DNA from: Ruminococcaceae bacterium YAD3003
Lineage (GTDB): Bacteria; Bacillota; Clostridia; Saccharofermentanales; Saccharofermentanaceae
NCBI GenBank assembly: GCA_900107185.1
Contig: FNPA01000010.1
Coordinates: forward strand, 62,001-126,000
Length of the DNA stretch: 64,000 bases
Reading direction: 5' to 3'
The notes under the pieces are model-generated. The model had not been told where the DNA came from. It searched no databases and saw only the letters and a program-made list of their open reading frames with translations. A program made the translations under genes and the position numbers. Shown one piece after another: positions 12,571-55,768 of the stretch; the stretch's first letter is position 1, and every line of letters starts with the position of its first letter.

Positions 12571-12601
12571 TCTTATTTCCCGGTCGGGACGACGCATGGC
12601 T

Positions 12602-12714
12602 GAAAATGCGTTAAAAAGTCTGGCTACTGACACATGTTTTGACGCACTTTTGGCGGGAAAGGGCAGAAAATGCGTTAATAGATGTGGCTGCTGACACATG
12701 TTTTGACGCACTTT
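12602..12714. repeat. Tandem 64-bp direct repeat with internal inverted arms
   Basis: Two units start at 12602 and 12666, exactly 64 bp apart. GAAAATGCGTTAA opens each unit, and a 24-nt block (12627-12650 and 12691-12714) is identical in both, ending in GACGCACTTT. AAAATGCGTT and ACGCACTTT are near-complementary, so each unit can fold into a hairpin. It lies between two convergent genes. It is similar in style, though not in sequence, to the TACTACAC elements elsewhere. Confidence 0.75.
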
Positions 12715-14335: not shown

Positions 14336-15730
14336 TCAGAGTGACTCGAGCTTAATGATGTCGCAGCAGCCTTCAATGGTCGTTGCCCTGTCTTCTTCGA
14401 GGAGCTCGATCATCTTGCCGACATCAGAATAATTCTGGTATTCCTTGGGCACCATCGTCTCGTATTTACGCATCTTCGAAATATCTTCCTGATAGAGGTC
14501 GATCATTCTCTGATTCTCGAGACCCTTCTGGTATCTCTCATTTACCATGTTATTCATGTACTCAGCATTGCTGTTGAATTCTCCCTGCTTTCTTCTGCAG
14601 ATGATGATACCGAAGATGATGATCGCTGCAGCAACGATGATCGCAACGGCAATTCCGCCCATGAGATCGCCCATGATGCTGGTAACCGCAGCACGTGCTG
14701 CCTCCGCATCCAGTCCCATCTGGGCCTTAGCCTTAACAGAGCTCATCATGATTCCATATGAAATGATATAGATGAGATATCCTGCCACAGGAGCAGCAAC
14801 AACGAACGGCCAGAAGTACTTGATGAAGGATCTCTTCTTGTACATCTCTTCGTTTGACTTAGGGAATTCGCTCTGGGGCTTGATCTTTGCCTTGAGCTCT
14901 TCAGTTTCAGAGATGAGCTCTCTGTAGTCCTTGAGATCTCTTAAGAGGGTGTTCTTACCTAACGTAGCAGCAGAAGCCGCACCGAAAGGTGTAACGCTGT
15001 CGTTATTTGCATTGTTGTTAGCTGCCGCGCCGAACGCACCGCCGAACGCACCGAATGCAGCAAACGGATTATTCTGATTGGGTTTTGCAGCCGGTTCAGG
15101 AGCATTGTTAGCGCCGAATGCACCAAAAGGCCTGTTGTTATTAGGCTTTTCTTCTTCTGCTGCTTTAGGAGCAGCTGCAGGAGCAAACGGTTTAAAAGGA
15201 TTACTCTCCTTAGGCTTTTCTTCAGCTGCAGGAGCGGAAGTATTAACAGCACCGGTGAATGGTTTAAACGGATTGCTCTCCTTGGGCTTTTCCTCTGCGG
15301 GAGGATTGGGAGCAGCAAATGCACCGGGCCTGTTGTTATTGGGCTTTTCTGCTGCTTTAGGAGCAGCTGCCGGAGTAAACGGTTTAAAAGGATTGATAGC
15401 GTTAGCATTATTTGCTGCAGGAGGATTTGCCATACCGAACGTTCCAAAAGGATTGTTCATGTTGGACTTTTCAGGTGCTGCGGGAGCTGCCGGTCTCTCC
15501 TCTTTATCTGAATTGTCGGAAGGCTTTGCTGCACCAAACGATCCAAAAGGGTTAGCAGCATTAGCATTATTTGCAGCGGGAGCATTAGCCGCACCGAACG
15601 CACCAAATGCACTAAACGGGCTGGGTGAATTGGGTTTTGCTGCATTTGCATTTCCGTCGTCCCTGCCACACTTAGGGCAATTACCCCCAACGAAAGGGAT
15701 GATGGAACCGCATTTCTTGCACGTCTGCAT
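14336..15730 (-). CDS. Zinc-ribbon membrane protein with NPF-rich repeats
   Basis: A 464-residue protein with four parts: an N-terminal zinc ribbon (CKKCGS...CPKCGR, residues 4-23); about 230 residues of Asn/Pro/Ala/Phe repeats (units such as NPFGAFG and NPFKPF alternating with EEKPKES); a helical stretch; and two membrane helices near 310-335 and 355-375, followed by a C-terminal helical tail. The repeat region must be disordered. The function is unknown. Zinc-ribbon plus membrane proteins of this type are frequent in Clostridia. A weak variant of the shared TTAAG-type motif lies upstream at 15806-15820. Confidence 0.75.
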   Translation of the reverse strand: MQTCKKCGSIIPFVGGNCPKCGRDDGNANAAKPNSPSPFSAFGAFGAANAPAANNANAANPFGSFGAAKPSDNSDKEERPAAPAAPEKSNMNNPFGTFGMANPPAANNANAINPFKPFTPAAAPKAAEKPNNNRPGAFAAPNPPAEEKPKESNPFKPFTGAVNTSAPAAEEKPKESNPFKPFAPAAAPKAAEEEKPNNNRPFGAFGANNAPEPAAKPNQNNPFAAFGAFGGAFGAAANNNANNDSVTPFGAASAATLGKNTLLRDLKDYRELISETEELKAKIKPQSEFPKSNEEMYKKRSFIKYFWPFVVAAPVAGYLIYIISYGIMMSSVKAKAQMGLDAEAARAAVTSIMGDLMGGIAVAIIVAAAIIIFGIIICRRKQGEFNSNAEYMNNMVNERYQKGLENQRMIDLYQEDISKMRKYETMVPKEYQNYSDVGKMIELLEEDRATTIEGCCDIIKLESL

Positions 15731-21082: not shown

Positions 21083-21105
21083 GTTTTCCTCCTTGTTATT
21101 TCCGC

Positions 21106-21387
21106 TGGCAAATAAAAAGCCCGCGGCAATTGTTCATTGCCACGGGACGAATTCGCTGTTAAAAGCACCTTCGCGGTACCACCCATGTTCAGGAAACCAC
21201 TATAGTTACCTGCTCTTGTTCTCGCGCTGTAATGCCGCCGCACGCATCTGCTTAATCAGTAAAACCGTTTTCGACAGAAGCTCCAGTGTTGAAATTCGTC
21301 CTAGCGCCCTTCGGATCGTGCTCTCAGCCCAAGACACGACTCTCTGTTCCGGCCAGCAGTAAGACTACTTACGCACCTTCATTGCAG
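21106..21387 (-). ncRNA. T-box riboswitch controlling pheST
   Basis: Read on the minus strand, the leader contains the canonical T-box GGGTGGTACCGCG (around 21172-21184), which pairs with the acceptor end of uncharged tRNA. The terminator stem is CCCGTGGCAA/TTGCCGCGGG (21120-21146), followed by a T run. In stem I a TTC (complement of 21291-21293) in the context GAATTTCAAC is a good Phe specifier codon. An antiterminator can form between the T-box region and the 5' arm of the terminator. Phe starvation should therefore raise pheST expression. Confidence 0.93.
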
Positions 21388-21393
21388 AGCACT

Positions 21394-21423
21394 ATTTTAC
21401 ATACTTATATTGGAGAAAGTCAA
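21394..21423 (-). promoter_or_regulatory. pheST promoter
   Basis: On the minus strand, TTGACT (complement of 21418-21423) and TAAAAT (complement of 21394-21399) are separated by 18 bp. The start would be near 21387, just before the T-box leader. Confidence 0.75.
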
Positions 21424-21456
21424 GTTTGGCGAGGGGTTCTTATACGTTGGTGTATT

Positions 21457-21562
21457 TTTTGTGCAGTAAAACCCTCGATTTACTACACAAAAAACTACAC
21501 TTTCGCGAAAAGTGCAGTAAAAAGTGTAGTAAATCACCCGATTTACTACACTAATTTCGCAC
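21457..21562 (-). repeat. TACTACAC multi-hairpin element, copy A
   Basis: Read on the minus strand: hairpin GTGTAGTAAAT-CGGGTG-ATTTACTACAC (21524-21551, perfect 11-bp arms), then a middle hairpin around TTTTCGCGAAAG, then GTGTAGTAAA-loop-TTTACTGCAC (21461-21488). T runs follow the stems. It separates the 3' end of the C1 peptidase gene from the pheS promoter and could terminate the former. Confidence 0.85.
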
Positions 21563-21590
21563 TCGTTCATTTACCTCGCGAAAGCACCCC

Positions 21591-29972: not shown

Positions 29973-31228
29973 TAAAGAAACTCCGCTGGCGTTTTATATC
30001 CACCGCAATGCTCGCGTTCTTCCTCGTGATCGCACTGATCGCGGGCTTTGTAAACGCCGCATACTATTGCGTGGAAACCAGAAGGATCGATAAGACACTC
30101 GATTCCATTATCAGTTACGACGCATATCAGCCGCGCTTCGACGGACACGGAGGCGGCCCTGGCGGTCCCGGCGGCATGGGAGATATGAACCCGATGGAGC
30201 CCTTCAGGGCGCTTCCTAACGAAGAAGAAAACTACATGACACGTTTCTTCATCGTAACGCTCGATGAGAACAACATGATCGTCGAATCCTCTCTCGATTT
30301 CATCGCTTCCATCGATGAGGATGACCTCATCTCCTACACTGATTCCGCACTGTCCAAAAAGGCTGACAGCGGCTACGTGAACGGCTACCGCTATATGCGT
30401 TCCTATGCCGATGGAGCAACGATAATCACGTTCCTGAACTGCGAGCGCGAACTCCAGTCCATGAGAACGATCCTCGCCATGACTCTCCTGATCTCAGGTG
30501 TGGCAATTATCCTCGTATTCATACTGGTTCTCCTATTCTCTAAAAAAGCGCTCCAGCCGATCGCGCAGAACATCGAGATCCAGAAGCGCTTCATTACCGA
30601 TGCAGGCCACGAGTTAAAGACACCTCTGACTTCCATCTCCACGAGCCTCGACGTCATCGAAATCGATAAAGGTGAAGACGAGTGGACACAGAATATCCGT
30701 TCGCAGGTTAACCGCATGACCGGTCTGGTCGGCGAGTTGGTCGCGCTCTCAAAGCTCGATGAAGTGAAGCCTGTTCCGGCGAAGGAAACTTTCGATCTGT
30801 CAGGTGCCGCATGGGAAATCATCGAGGTCCATATGCCTCAGGCAAAGGCGCGTGGCAAAGAAATAATGACTGATATCCAGAACGGCGTCACTCTCTTCGG
30901 CGAGAAGGCCTCCATCCAGCAGATGCTCTCGGTCCTCATCGACAACGCCATCAAGTATTCTGACGATAACGGCAGCATCGTCGTTACCATCAACAAGGTG
31001 AAGAACAAAACGCGCATCGAAGTCTTCAACACTTGCAACTATTCGACAGCGCCTGACTGCAGCCGTCTCTTCGACCGCTTCTACCGTCCTGACGAATCCC
31101 GCAACACCTCCACCGGCGGCAACGGTATCGGCCTGGCGATCGCAAAGGCTGTTGTCGAAGCCCACGGCGGCAAGATTTCCGCGAAGTGCCCCGACGGCAA
31201 GTCAATGACGATAACAGTGGAGCTGTAA
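29969..31228 (+). CDS. Sensor histidine kinase
   Basis: A 419-residue membrane kinase starting at a GTG that overlaps the regulator stop (GTGA). Two membrane helices (about 12-35 and 170-192) enclose an extracellular sensor with a Gly/Pro-rich stretch (GGGPGGPGGMGDM). The HisKA phosphoacceptor is in DAGHELKTPLTS, and the ATPase domain shows the N box (LIDNAIKYSD) and G boxes (GGNGIGLAIAK). No HAMP domain is evident; the HisKA domain follows the second helix closely. The signal is unknown. Repeat element B, not a simple terminator, follows the gene. Confidence 0.95.
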   Translation: MIKKLRWRFISTAMLAFFLVIALIAGFVNAAYYCVETRRIDKTLDSIISYDAYQPRFDGHGGGPGGPGGMGDMNPMEPFRALPNEEENYMTRFFIVTLDENNMIVESSLDFIASIDEDDLISYTDSALSKKADSGYVNGYRYMRSYADGATIITFLNCERELQSMRTILAMTLLISGVAIILVFILVLLFSKKALQPIAQNIEIQKRFITDAGHELKTPLTSISTSLDVIEIDKGEDEWTQNIRSQVNRMTGLVGELVALSKLDEVKPVPAKETFDLSGAAWEIIEVHMPQAKARGKEIMTDIQNGVTLFGEKASIQQMLSVLIDNAIKYSDDNGSIVVTINKVKNKTRIEVFNTCNYSTAPDCSRLFDRFYRPDESRNTSTGGNGIGLAIAKAVVEAHGGKISAKCPDGKSMTITVEL

Positions 31229-31261
31229 TCCACTCTGCTATCCGCCCTGCAGATTCCAGCG

Positions 31262-31374
31262 TGTAAATTTAGTGTAGTAATCGGCCCGTGTTACTACACT
31301 TTTTTTGCACGTTTGTTCACAAGTGTAGTTTTACGTGTAGTAATTGAACCTATTTACTACACATAATTTGCACG
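31262..31374 (+). repeat. TACTACAC multi-hairpin element, copy B
   Basis: AGTGTAGTAA (31271-31280) pairs with TTACTACACT (31291-31300), then T7 and GCACGTTTGTTCACAAG, then GTGTAGTAA (31335-31343) with TTACTACAC (31354-31362), ending ATAATTTGCACG. A middle ACTACACTT/AAGTGTAGT pairing (31293-31301, 31321-31329) is an alternative fold. Copy C, in the same orientation, lies 1.2 kb downstream. Confidence 0.9.
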
Positions 31375-31523
31375 CAGCAAAATACTTCTCTTCGCACGGC
31401 TGGTTGTAATAATTTAATTATTTTATTATTCCCCTCGAAATCCATGTTTTCGGGCGTTTTTTGCTTGTCGCTTTTGTCGTATTTTGTCGTGTTTGTTTAC
31501 ATAATTCCGACAAACGGTCCGCA

Positions 31524-31538
31524 TATAATCGGATCATG
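31524..31538 (+). promoter_or_regulatory. -10 box 6 bp before the start codon (possible leaderless start)
   Basis: TATAAT at 31524-31529 is followed by six bases and then the ATG at 31536. No ribosome site precedes the ATG. TTTACA at 31496-31501 is a -35-like word but 22 bp away. Confidence 0.5.
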
Positions 31539-32345
31539 GAAATAATTAACAAGCACATCATGCAAGAGTATCTCGCCCTCAAGATCAATTATTGCCGCAA
31601 GCAGCTCGAAAGGCTGCCTGAGATTAAGCTGCAGACTCACAACAAGAACTCGGATTCTAAAGACGTGATTCTTGTATACGGTCACAGATACAGAGCTAAC
31701 TCTACCAACGGTAAGCGGTATGCCAAGCTCCTACAATATAAGGAGACTCTCCAAAGGAAACTCGAATACTACGAGTCTGTCTGGAACTGCAAGTACAAAG
31801 ATATCCCATTCCCCGAATGTGAACCACACAGAGTTATCCGCACACTGCTATCAGCTAATGGGACCAGGATCGTCATGAACAAGGAATTTTTCGACAGCCT
31901 GAAAAATGATGCGAACACAAAATACCCGAAGCCAACCAGTTATCCGTTCAACGGGATATACTACCGTTCAGCTGCAGAACGCGAGATAGCTATCTTCTAT
32001 ACGGAGACGGGCATTCAATTCAAGTATGAACCCGAGATGACGATAATGGGAGTACCGGGATTCATCTACCCGGACTTCGTAATATACATTCCCGAACTGG
32101 ATAACTGTAAGATCCACGAGCACTTGGGAATGAAGGACTCTTCCAGGTATCTCCAAATCACCTGTACCAAATACCATAATTACACTAATGCAGGTCTGGT
32201 TCCTGAACTTGATGTCATATTCACCCATGACATAGAAGAGATTCCGTTCGACGTAAGAGCCTTATCATCCAAACTGAATACCTCGATCTACACAACAATG
32301 ATCGGAACCAAGCAACCCATTAATACTCAACAAACGGGATCGTGA
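31536..32345 (+). CDS. PD-(D/E)XK-like nuclease-fold protein of unknown role
   Basis: A 269-residue soluble protein. The N-terminal 80 residues are helical, probably a coiled coil. Residues about 140-215 match the pattern of a restriction-endonuclease-like core: E150 (SAAEREIA), E165 (KYEPE), D180 (YPDFVIY), E195 (HEHLGM) and K212. This pattern is known from uncharacterised clostridial proteins; I infer a DNA nuclease fold, not a proven activity. I start it at the ATG at 31536, which lies 6 bp past a TATAAT. It is bracketed by repeat copies B and C in the same orientation, and no methylase or partner gene is adjacent. Confidence 0.7.
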   Translation: MEIINKHIMQEYLALKINYCRKQLERLPEIKLQTHNKNSDSKDVILVYGHRYRANSTNGKRYAKLLQYKETLQRKLEYYESVWNCKYKDIPFPECEPHRVIRTLLSANGTRIVMNKEFFDSLKNDANTKYPKPTSYPFNGIYYRSAAEREIAIFYTETGIQFKYEPEMTIMGVPGFIYPDFVIYIPELDNCKIHEHLGMKDSSRYLQITCTKYHNYTNAGLVPELDVIFTHDIEEIPFDVRALSSKLNTSIYTTMIGTKQPINTQQTGS

Positions 32346-32359
32346 TATGCGGGGTCGGG

Positions 32360-32464
32360 GAACCGGCCTCTTGGTCACCAAATAAGTACCTGTATGCTGG
32401 CAGTCAAGGACGACCAAAGGTCGAACATTGTGATCCTTGACGGCCATGTAAAGCAGGTGCTATT
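32360..32464. other. Noncoding stretch with several hairpins
   Basis: Between the nuclease-like gene and repeat C there is a TTGGT/ACCAA hairpin, then GTCAAGGA (32403-32410) pairing with TCCTTGAC (32434-32441) around an inner CGACC-AAA-GGTCG hairpin (32411-32423), then a GTAAAG/CTTTAC pair. No T run follows the large stem, so it is not a classical terminator. It may be a structured RNA or a recombination site. Confidence 0.4.
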
Positions 32465-32479
32465 TCTTTACATGAATAC

Positions 32480-32596
32480 GTGTGCAAATTTTTTGTAGTA
32501 AACACGACTCATAACTACACTTTTTTTGCACGTTTGTTCACTAGTGTAGTTTTTCGTGTAGTATTCGTGACAATTTACTACACTTTTTTCGCACAC
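32480..32596 (+). repeat. TACTACAC multi-hairpin element, copy C
   Basis: GTAGTAA...TAACTACAC (32495-32520), T7, then a core nearly identical to copy B (GCACGTTTGTTCACTAG, 32528-32544), then GTGTAGTA (32556-32563) with TACTACAC, a T run and CGCAC. The loop sequences differ from copy B while the stems and core are kept. Confidence 0.9.
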
Positions 32597-32646
32597 CCTT
32601 TTTGAGCAAGAGTTTGTGCTATTCTTATCTTCAAAGGGAGCGGCCC

Positions 32647-33093
32647 ATGAAACAAGCCTATGAGATGACATATACGCACAAGACGGACGAGCGCACTTCG
32701 GTGCGTTTGATTCCGTATGATTCCATATATCAGGACCAGTACCGGAAACTCTACAATTCCTGCTACCACGAGATGCGTGAGGCGCTAGGGATCAGGCCGT
32801 ATGACTTCATTCAGGACGATTCTTTCTTCGATGAAGGAATGGATGAAGTGTATATTCTCGTCGAAGATGGCGAGCTCATCGGCAGCGTTGCACTCAAGGG
32901 CAACGAGATCGACGACCTGCTGGTAGCCATTAAACATCAGGGCAAAGGTTACGGCAAACAGATCCTCTTGTGGGCGCTCGGGAAAATAAACAGCGACAAC
33001 ATAATCCTGCACGTCGCGGAATGGAACGCGCGAGCGGTCAGGCTATATAAGAGCGTCGGATTTGAAGTCACAAAAACAATCGAGATCAAGTGA
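32647..33093 (+). CDS. GNAT N-acetyltransferase
   Basis: A 148-residue acetyltransferase. Motif A is present (VAIKHQGKGYGKQILLWAL), with the C-terminal VRLYKSVGFEVTK typical of Rim-like/YesJ-like GNATs. I chose the ATG at 32647, behind AAAGGGAG. The substrate is unknown. The ProC-like gene starts 10 bp after its stop, so the two form an operon. Confidence 0.88.
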   Translation: MKQAYEMTYTHKTDERTSVRLIPYDSIYQDQYRKLYNSCYHEMREALGIRPYDFIQDDSFFDEGMDEVYILVEDGELIGSVALKGNEIDDLLVAIKHQGKGYGKQILLWALGKINSDNIILHVAEWNARAVRLYKSVGFEVTKTIEIK

Positions 33094-39199: not shown

Positions 39200-39217
39200 A
39201 TCAGCGTCCTGAAATAC

Positions 39218-39345
39218 CCGTGCAAATTTTGTGCATACTTGGCTGTGTTTTTTGCACGGAATTTTGCATTTTCCTTTAAATTTGCAAATTTAGTGCAAGT
39301 TTTGGCCTGAAGTTTGCACAAAAATTTGCACTTCCGAAACCGGCC
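39218..39345. repeat. TGCAAA-rich hairpin cluster between convergent genes
   Basis: CCGTGCAAA (39218-39226) and TTTGCACGG (39251-39259) are perfect inverted arms; a central AAATTTGCAAATTT palindrome (39279-39292) and a GTGCAAA/TTTGCAC-rich third part follow. It shares the T-run-plus-GCACG style with the TACTACAC elements but has different stems. It fills the gap between mnmA and the CPBP protease gene. Confidence 0.65.
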
Positions 39346-55641: not shown

Positions 55642-55768
55642 CCGCGCGTGAATATTTTGTGTAGTAAATCCTGTCTGATACTACACAAAAAACTACACTT
55701 GTGAACAAGCGTGCAAAATTAGTGTAGTAAACACCTCGAAAGCATGCACTTTTTTTGCACGCGCGTGG
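55642..55768 (-). repeat. TACTACAC multi-hairpin element, copy D
   Basis: Read on the minus strand: a TTTTTTTGCA part, AATTTTGCACGCTTGTTCACAAG (the conserved core, 55700-55722 in short), GTGTAGT, then a GTGTAGTA/TTTACTACAC hairpin (55659-55686). The outer ends carry CCGCGCGTG and CACGCGCGTGG, a near terminal inverted repeat. One stem arm has been lost. It lies between convergent genes. Confidence 0.85.

Follow-up and report, generated by a model that had tools for sequence, protein, structure and literature searches.

To our knowledge, REPIN-RAYT systems are the reference case in which a lasting population of repeats is linked to a single chromosomal enzyme. This study concerns a family of palindromic elements found in a 64,000-nucleotide stretch of Ruminococcaceae bacterium YAD3003, referred to as the window (C13:62001-126000 of a 2.67 Mb genome in 30 contigs, labelled G000), and the gene P0001 (31536-32345, + strand), which lies between two of the element copies and encodes a 269-residue protein predicted to be a PD-(D/E)XK-type nuclease. 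The elements, which are built from short inverted words, cluster beside nuclease genes of this type, and their words are private to nuclease lineages. We consider it rather probable that they are miniature, non-autonomous, REPIN-like mobile DNA, each family being dependent on a word-recognising chromosomal PD-(D/E)XK-type nuclease. This looks like a nuclease-linked repeat-spreading system that has so far not been described, in which enzyme and DNA word change together. Among the top-ranked results of searches in open-access PMC literature, no PD-(D/E)XK nuclease with linked palindromic repeats was found.

According to Bertels and Rainey (2011; PMC3116915), REPIN-RAYT repeats are extragenic palindromic doublets which form hairpins, each family being tied to one single-copy chromosomal enzyme nearby; co-evolution of repeat and enzyme was proposed, and tandem clusters are also known. 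The elements described here resemble those of that account in being dispersed extragenic palindromic doublets and in flanking the cognate enzyme gene. In contrast to the same account, the enzyme is of the PD-(D/E)XK type rather than a Y1 transposase, the two hairpins have N10 loops and half-words one helical turn outside, the word families have no common tag, and the segment linked to the word is a predicted sheet at residues 29-56. The Y1 family of RAYTs (PF01797) had no match at E<=0.001 in the YAD3003 genome, whereas 5 of 14 control genomes were matched. By eye, the foot of the hairpins was seen to carry neither a GTAG nor a CGTC tag: GTAG is present inside GTGTAGTAA only, the other words being GGGAGTAA, TGGCGTTT and GTCTAGGA. 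As the organisation is that of REPIN-RAYT but no Y1 protein was found and the enzyme is of another class, we refer to the elements as REPIN-like in their working and not as members of that family.

The enzymes of GTAG- and CGTC-tagged repeats, REPtrons and TIRtrons are tyrosine transposases (PMC3733652, in the parts consulted). As in that account, palindromic repeats decorate the enzyme gene, occur as dimers and form species-wise families; the terms 'Clostrid' and 'Firmicutes' do not occur in the main text of that article. In TIGR-Tas systems (PMC12045711), repeats of 8-12 nt alternate with 9-nt spacers, and the proteins are RNA-guided and contain a Nop domain. They share with the present loci the repeat arrays up- and downstream of a protein gene and repeats that differ by locus, whereas the repeats here are inverted words. 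The Nop family was absent among the eight Pfam families that matched any of 27 nuclease members at E<=1. The modelled C-terminal fold of P0001 resembles Tn7 TnsA (VIA structure comparison, Z 7.3, a value that can be reached by chance; 114 aligned residues; root-mean-square deviation 3.4). In contrast, the sequence identity is 8%, and neither TnsB nor TnsC is present among the scanned neighbours of P0001, which include a histidine kinase, a response regulator, a GNAT protein and a pyrroline-5-carboxylate reductase-like gene. Finally, the catalytic domain shows sequence similarity to phage Holliday junction resolvases (PHROG 9019, a weak match) and to the last domain of the PADLOC candidate PDC-S68, each in 27/27 homologs. 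We know of no word-linked N-terminal sheet or linked repeats in those proteins.

Elements and their words at nuclease genes

The original prediction had described four intergenic copies, and these were recovered as 119-nt units with strong folding; the count was too low, as at least 19 places exist in the genome at E<0.01. Copy A (21447-21565, - strand; 120 bits with the covariance model R1) lies between the 3' end of a C1 peptidase gene and the pheS promoter region. Copy B (31258-31376, +; 128.2 bits; hairpin score 27/27; word GTGTAGTAA) lies about 160 nt 5' of the nuclease ATG, and copy C (32479-32597, +; 117.7 bits; oriented as B) about 130 nt 3' of the nuclease stop, the two being 79% identical without gaps. 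The nuclease gene between them had been overlooked in the original prediction. Copy D (55645-55763, -; 111.9 bits) lies between convergent genes. These four and a fifth full copy (C18:19060-19178) served as seeds for R1. Each of the copies A-D contains two palindromic modules consisting of a word W, 10 nt and the reverse complement of W, with half-words about one helical turn outside. The order is GTGC, about 7 bases, GTGTAGTAA-N10-TTACTACAC, about 7 bases and GCAC, followed by a spacer of about 12 nt and a second such module. The folding energy was better than that of 200/200 shuffles in 7 of the 8 strands and of 199/200 in the eighth (z -3.75 to -8.96).

As plain k-mer counts around nuclease genes were too weak, a de novo, word-blind two-hairpin score was used, which looks for pairs of hairpins that lie 60-65 nt from each other and resemble each other in their 9-letter arms. 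Copies A, B and D scored 25, 27 and 22, with 63 nt from hairpin to hairpin, and copy C scored below 20 because its first hairpin is degenerate. Four more window sites scored 20-21; when the window was shuffled 20 times, 26 hits scored 20, one scored 21 and none scored higher. The score was then applied to the 500-nt flanks of 80 homolog loci (L093-L172), with distant segments and shuffled flanks as controls. At a score of at least 22, elements were found in 45/159 nuclease flanks, in 3/406 distant segments and in 0/159 shuffled flanks, and they were present at 40/80 loci; at a score of at least 24, the nuclease flanks gave 28/159 and the distant segments 0/406. Non-coding gaps were marked in 25/90 cases near a nuclease gene and in 0/59 far from one. 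An earlier scan with other settings gave a similar linkage; its shuffled control, 831 kb in total, produced 9 hits. The hairpin spacing at a score of 22 was 61-63 nt in 31 elements of closer homologs and 62-64 nt in 14 elements of distant ones. Elements on both sides of the nuclease gene (score 21) were observed at 7 loci, with the same word at four of them (L094, L098, L119, L145) and related words at two (L113, L153).

In the YAD3003 genome, the five close nuclease paralogs are accompanied by the words GTCGACG (score 23), GTGTAGTAA (27), GGGAGTAA (26), TGGCGTTT (20) and GTCTAGGA (24). The covariance-model search suggested in the original prediction gave 34 rows at E<=1, which correspond to 19 places at E<0.01 after strands and overlaps were merged; as 150 of 354 candidates were scored, this is a lower bound. 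A count below about ten without a common fold, which would have spoken against the original prediction, was not observed: there are 19 places, eight of which belong to the GTGTAG family. Four of the places flank nuclease genes (B, C, L028 and L029). The word of 14 of the other 15 is one that flanks an own paralog: six carry GTGTAG (three being R1 seeds), four GGGAGT, three TGGCG and one TCTAGG. Without the GTGTAG family of R1 itself, 8 of 9 dispersed places carry an own-paralog word. When 12 dispersed places were scored against all words, the expected own word was the best of the five own words in 11, with 3-7 occurrences; a foreign word tied with or beat it in some (L019, L020, L021, L025). 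Most of the 19 places adjoin gene 3' ends, and three overlap open reading frames of at least 100 codons, which are possibly spurious.

With stricter filters, R1 matched 25/85 genomes of the genus at E<=0.1. Comparison of 49 loci revealed one architecture, mostly of 115-119 nt, with differing words, the families being GTGTAGTAA, GGGAGTAA (in its paired form GGGAGTAA-N10-TTACTCCC), TGGCGTTT/TGGCGTAA, GTCTAGGA, GTACAGTAA and others. In many elements, every word is swapped in concert. In the original prediction, the differing loops were taken to be as expected if structure rather than loop sequence is kept. Among the first five copies, arm covariation was absent, the arm sequence itself being kept while the loops drift; once the other word families were added, covariation appeared, with 22/22 pairs changed on both sides (182 cells vs 44 in shuffles) in a set of 53 matches from 34 hand-picked loci with 49 distinct rows, often from both strands of one element and in an alignment that leans towards the R1 structure.

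The words were also followed across genomes. The exact form GTGTAGTAA-N-TTACTACAC was found only in the YAD3003 genome among 59 genomes. Hairpins of the form GTACAGTA-N-TACTGTAC occur in 4/85 genomes (13 in G100, 9 in G027, 8 in G061 and 1 in G107), and the reversed control gave 0. G100 and G027 are both of the genomes with a cognate GTACAGTA nuclease; 3 of the 13 hairpins in G100 and at least 1 of the 9 in G027 lie within nuclease-flanking elements. Similarly, TTCACGAA-N-TTCGTGAA hairpins were found in all three genomes predicted from the nuclease loci L098, L124 and L103 (24 in G083, 3 in G074 and 1 in G102).

The nuclease and its variable segment

P0001 comprises an N-terminal region (about residues 1-90) with a helix, a three-strand sheet and a long helix, and a C-terminal PD-(D/E)XK-type domain (about residues 115-255). 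No meaningful family match was obtained in Pfam or NCBIfam, although homologs, close or distant and usually several each, are present in 84/85 genomes of the genus. The AlphaFold2 model has a mean predicted local distance difference test score of 87.9. In the VIA comparison, the C-terminal part matched Bax1 (Z 7.6), TnsA and the Holliday resolvase ST1444 (Z 6.0). Bax1, TnsA, Can2, Holliday resolvase, MunI and PspGI, all of which we take to be PD-(D/E)XK fold proteins, are among the best 25 rows, with moderate Z values of 5.2-7.6, and the modelled C-terminal domain is accordingly predicted to have the PD-(D/E)XK core fold. E148 and D180 are invariant and E195, which is followed by H196, is nearly so in 27 aligned rows. 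For the N-terminal domain, no fold was assigned, since only weak likenesses were obtained (prefoldin, a phiC31 integrase region; best Z 7.0).

The segment that changes with the word is the predicted three-strand sheet at residues 29-56 (codons at 31620-31703, +), the candidate word-reading module and the most variable of five segments compared. The nearest neighbours in a tree of 65 nucleases have common words, and word similarity is correlated with protein identity among 27 nucleases (Mantel r 0.50, 0/2000 permutations), a correlation which is carried by close pairs. When close proteins have different words, they are also unlike each other in residues 29-56. In 13 pairs with a nuclease-domain identity of at least 0.83, several of which have a member in common, the identity of residues 29-56 is 0.89-0.96 in the 6 same-word pairs and 0.36-0.64 in the 7 different-word pairs, without overlap of the ranges; the words of L137/L129 and L137/L130 are related. 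The partial correlation of word and sheet given the nuclease domain is 0.32 (0/2000 permutations). L123 and L124, with the words GTGCGTAA and TTCACGAA, respectively, differ at 18 of 28 positions in residues 29-56 and at 10 of 141 in the nuclease domain (94% identical). L121 and L123, which have a common word, differ at 1 of 28 positions, whereas L121 and L124, with different words, are 96% identical in the nuclease domain and 36% in the sheet; the word of L121 was taken from an earlier scan and then located by string search. L129/L130 had been considered as a recent move to another locus, a candidate that was dropped because they read as one locus with a lost gene.

In one element (L037, G027:C1:82347-82467), a GTACAGTAA-like module stands beside a GTGTAGTAA module, and in its one-sided ortholog L035 (G107) both modules carry GTGTAG. 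This single case, which was not counted, is suggestive of an intermediate in word change by partial conversion.

Homologs extend beyond the genus: across the class, homologs at E<=1e-5 are present in 27/391 genomes, which represent five families including that of YAD3003. A single palindromic word, repeated in tandem, forms arrays beside the distant homologs L197, L198, L199, L200, L206 and L210, with periods of about 52-54 or 73-76, and beside the own-genome paralogs L181-L183, with somewhat different periods. At that score, arrays were not found at L178, L180, L191, L202, L205, L207, L208, L209, L211 and L213, and shuffled loci gave 0 array hits in 94 kb. The array-flanked distant homologs belong mostly to other Clostridia families.

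A conserved feature of these genes lies upstream. TTGTCG is present at 31465, 31474 and 31484 in front of P0001, followed by an inverted CGACAA at 31508 and TATAAT at 31524 (region 31465-31529, +), where the sigma-70 pattern scan listed no promoter. At least two TTGTCG within 120 nt upstream were found for 57/60 nuclease genes vs 1/845 distant windows. As these repeats, about 10 nt apart, are conserved upstream of nucleases whatever their word, a shared regulator is likely.

Dispersal and competing explanations

Dispersal was observed in the relative G083, in which 13 stretches hold 14 elements. L258 is 85-97% identical to other copies over 112-119 bp and L257 85-93% over 111-118 bp, and the 60-nt flanks of both are at the random level when compared with those of four other copies each. 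The units have thus dispersed in G083 as discrete pieces of about 112 bp. In this they resemble classical miniature inverted-repeat transposable elements (MITEs); unlike for those, a target-site duplication was not found among the 14 copies, the longest string common to a copy's own flanks being 3.1 letters on average and that common to the flanks of different copies 3.5. The guess of a MITE- or REP-like mobile element in the original prediction is therefore supported, as copies are dispersed and, in G083, unrelated flanks surround cores that are as much as 97% identical; a strict REP element is out, as the linked gene encodes a PD-(D/E)XK-type nuclease and Y1 was not matched.

The mobile reading suggests the following mechanism. 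The word would be read by the sheet at residues 29-56, either in the double helix or in DNA extruded as a cruciform. A dimer could take the W-N10-W' pair and further subunits the half-words one turn outside; the half-word to word spacing of about 11 bp suggests several subunits on one face of the DNA. The nuclease would nick or cut at the element, and repair or strand transfer would copy the element elsewhere. Upon a change in nuclease specificity, copies with the new word would spread and the old ones would decay. The wider proposal is a new class of intragenomic replicator, for which the chances for and against seem to us about equal: PD-(D/E)XK-type nucleases would use an exchangeable sheet, about 28 residues long, to read a word of 8-9 bp, and would maintain and spread the palindromic elements written in this word. 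In it, the nuclease domain is nearly constant while sheet and word would be replaced together, which would amount to a natural, seemingly evolvable code of DNA recognition, and tandem arrays would replace the two-module elements beside distant homologs in other Clostridia families.

Several observations weigh against the mobile reading. Binding, cutting and mobilising of the elements by the nuclease are steps that we infer. At a score of 22, 40/80 loci are without an element; by eye, single modules or differently spaced ones can be made out at part of them and nothing at the rest. L146 carries two different words on its two sides, none of the 19 places is a dispersed copy with the word of the GTCGACG paralog, and the correlation of word and protein falls to 0.11 below 80% identity. 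G061 has its 8 GTACAGTA hairpins without a close cognate nuclease; 4 of the 24 TTCACGAA hairpins in G083 and 2 of the 3 in G074 (0 of 1 in G102) belong to the nuclease-flanking elements themselves, and such hairpins also occur in G000 (2) and G063 (1), which have no known TTCACGAA nuclease (5/85 genomes in total). As to the enzyme, the matches in the Protein Data Bank are weak (none with Foldseek at E<=0.001; best VIA Z 7.6), and the classical catalytic lysine was not identified in the 27 rows, where the residue after E195 is H196 and not lysine. Besides the missing target-site duplication, five G083 copies (L251, L252, L260, L261, L263) lie within a common repeat of about 350 bp that is 98-99% identical, so part of the spread in G083 may be passive, carried by something bigger; this repeat is perhaps a composite mobile unit. 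Copy A lies at a synteny junction and is not a clean insertion: the homology of the pheS region ends before it in 26 of 29 relatives examined. Furthermore, 15/85 nuclease loci lie downstream of one same gene, presumably oxaloacetate-decarboxylase-beta-like, and yet fall in several tree clades, so that vertical inheritance and repeated insertion are indistinguishable there.

The most serious alternative, which we nevertheless regard as unlikely, is domestication: the word is read by the nuclease, whereas the elements are binding sites kept for a regulatory or structural role, as in autoregulation, chromosome organisation or repair, and are not mobilised by it. This would be consistent with words that persist while loops diverge, with elements both up- and downstream of the nuclease gene, with the missing target-site duplication and with copies retained in sister species, some of which are orthologous (L038/L060) or have identical loops (G027, G100, G061). 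The expansion in G083 argues against it, as does the comparison of dispersed G000 copies with those of G027 and G100, where no common flanks were seen among the loci compared and turnover of sites seems likely. A system acting on RNA, with transcribed hairpins and a nuclease that is guided by RNA or that binds and processes the hairpin RNA, could explain the strong hairpins on both strands, the proximity of most of the 19 places to gene 3' ends and the tandem arrays of palindromes next to distant homologs. If an RNA helix were under selection, G.T mismatches should be favoured over A.C ones. Counted on the nuclease-coding strand in the stems of nuclease-flanking elements, they numbered 20 vs 31 downstream and 28 vs 26 upstream, with no G.U bias. 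The outer half-words are altered jointly with the two hairpins, a coupling that base pairing by itself would not demand, and this, together with the lack of a G.T excess, favours recognition of DNA. Since, in addition, the window has no Rfam match at gathering scores and RuvC and HNH were, like Nop, absent among the eight Pfam families mentioned above, we consider this explanation quite improbable.

Still less credit can be given to a restriction- or toxin-like defence nuclease with the elements as decoys or protected self sites. The resemblance of the catalytic domain to PDC-S68 and the fast-changing specificity segment would suit such a role; however, plasmids gave zero matches to the nuclease protein, phage records and viral contigs one weak match each, a methylase is absent among the scanned neighbours of P0001, and decoys leave the dispersal unexplained. 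Ordinary bidirectional terminators, or classical REP/BIME repeats moved by a RAYT, are hardly credible. The elements are AT-rich hairpins with T runs close to gene 3' ends, and in a terminator pattern scan of 31200-32700 (3 found vs 1.2 in shuffles) the first hairpin of copy B fitted and copy C did not; single hairpins such as this one may serve as terminators, judging from their sequence. Terminators or small-RNA sources, which the original prediction had also proposed, fail as the main explanation because the words are private to nuclease lineages and the stem mismatches lack a G.U bias. The nuclease linkage already contradicts this explanation, and the unmatched Y1 family and the location of copy A upstream of the pheS promoter region also count against it.

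If the mobile, nuclease-dependent reading is true, a second, unrelated enzyme class follows the REPIN-RAYT logic; such partnerships would then arise independently, and one could ask what sustains them. As word and residues 29-56 vary over a near-constant catalytic domain, the recognition code could be derived from natural variants, which are also a possible source of new sequence-specific nucleases, all within proteins that have no Pfam or NCBIfam family.

Further copies and neighbouring features

A degenerate fifth copy in the window (39217-39334, -; R1 E=1.3e-5) lies between convergent genes; its word is approximately GTGCA, and none of the five own-nuclease words matched it. With respect to location, the original prediction had placed all copies at gene 3' ends and none in a divergent promoter region. 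The former applies to most of the 19 places, although copy A, lying between the peptidase 3' end and the 5' side of pheS, is also promoter-proximal; the latter does not extend to the genome, as L019 (G000:C13:15830-15947) lies between two gene 5' ends. In the nearest relatives (G061, G027, G107 and G100), another gene, which we take to be metallo-beta-lactamase-like, is located directly 5' of the conserved pheS promoter region. Neither the window nor the G000 loci examined yielded this gene, so that it could not be demonstrated that the element had mediated an inversion at copy A. The pheS leader (about 21083-21424, -) has no Rfam match at the gathering score and is conserved in many relatives, with 82-91% identity over leader and gene in the best 30 rows, the own genome aside.

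Neighbour cluster 0 (L173 and part of L099-L150) comprises the 15 nuclease loci mentioned above that lie downstream of one same gene; their words differ, and the site may be a hot spot or a long-held site. At 12598-12714 of the window, two palindromic tandem copies 64 nt apart, both with ACACATGTTTTGACGCACTTT, scored 21; as ACACATGTTTTGACGCACTTT also adjoins the distant nuclease paralog C11:275123-275698 (L179), this is probably an element of a ACACATGTTTTGACGCACTTT word family. Finally, imperfect tandem repeats of the families D1, D3 and D12 at 15042-15619 lie within the open reading frame 14336-15730 (-) and correspond to a repetitive protein segment.

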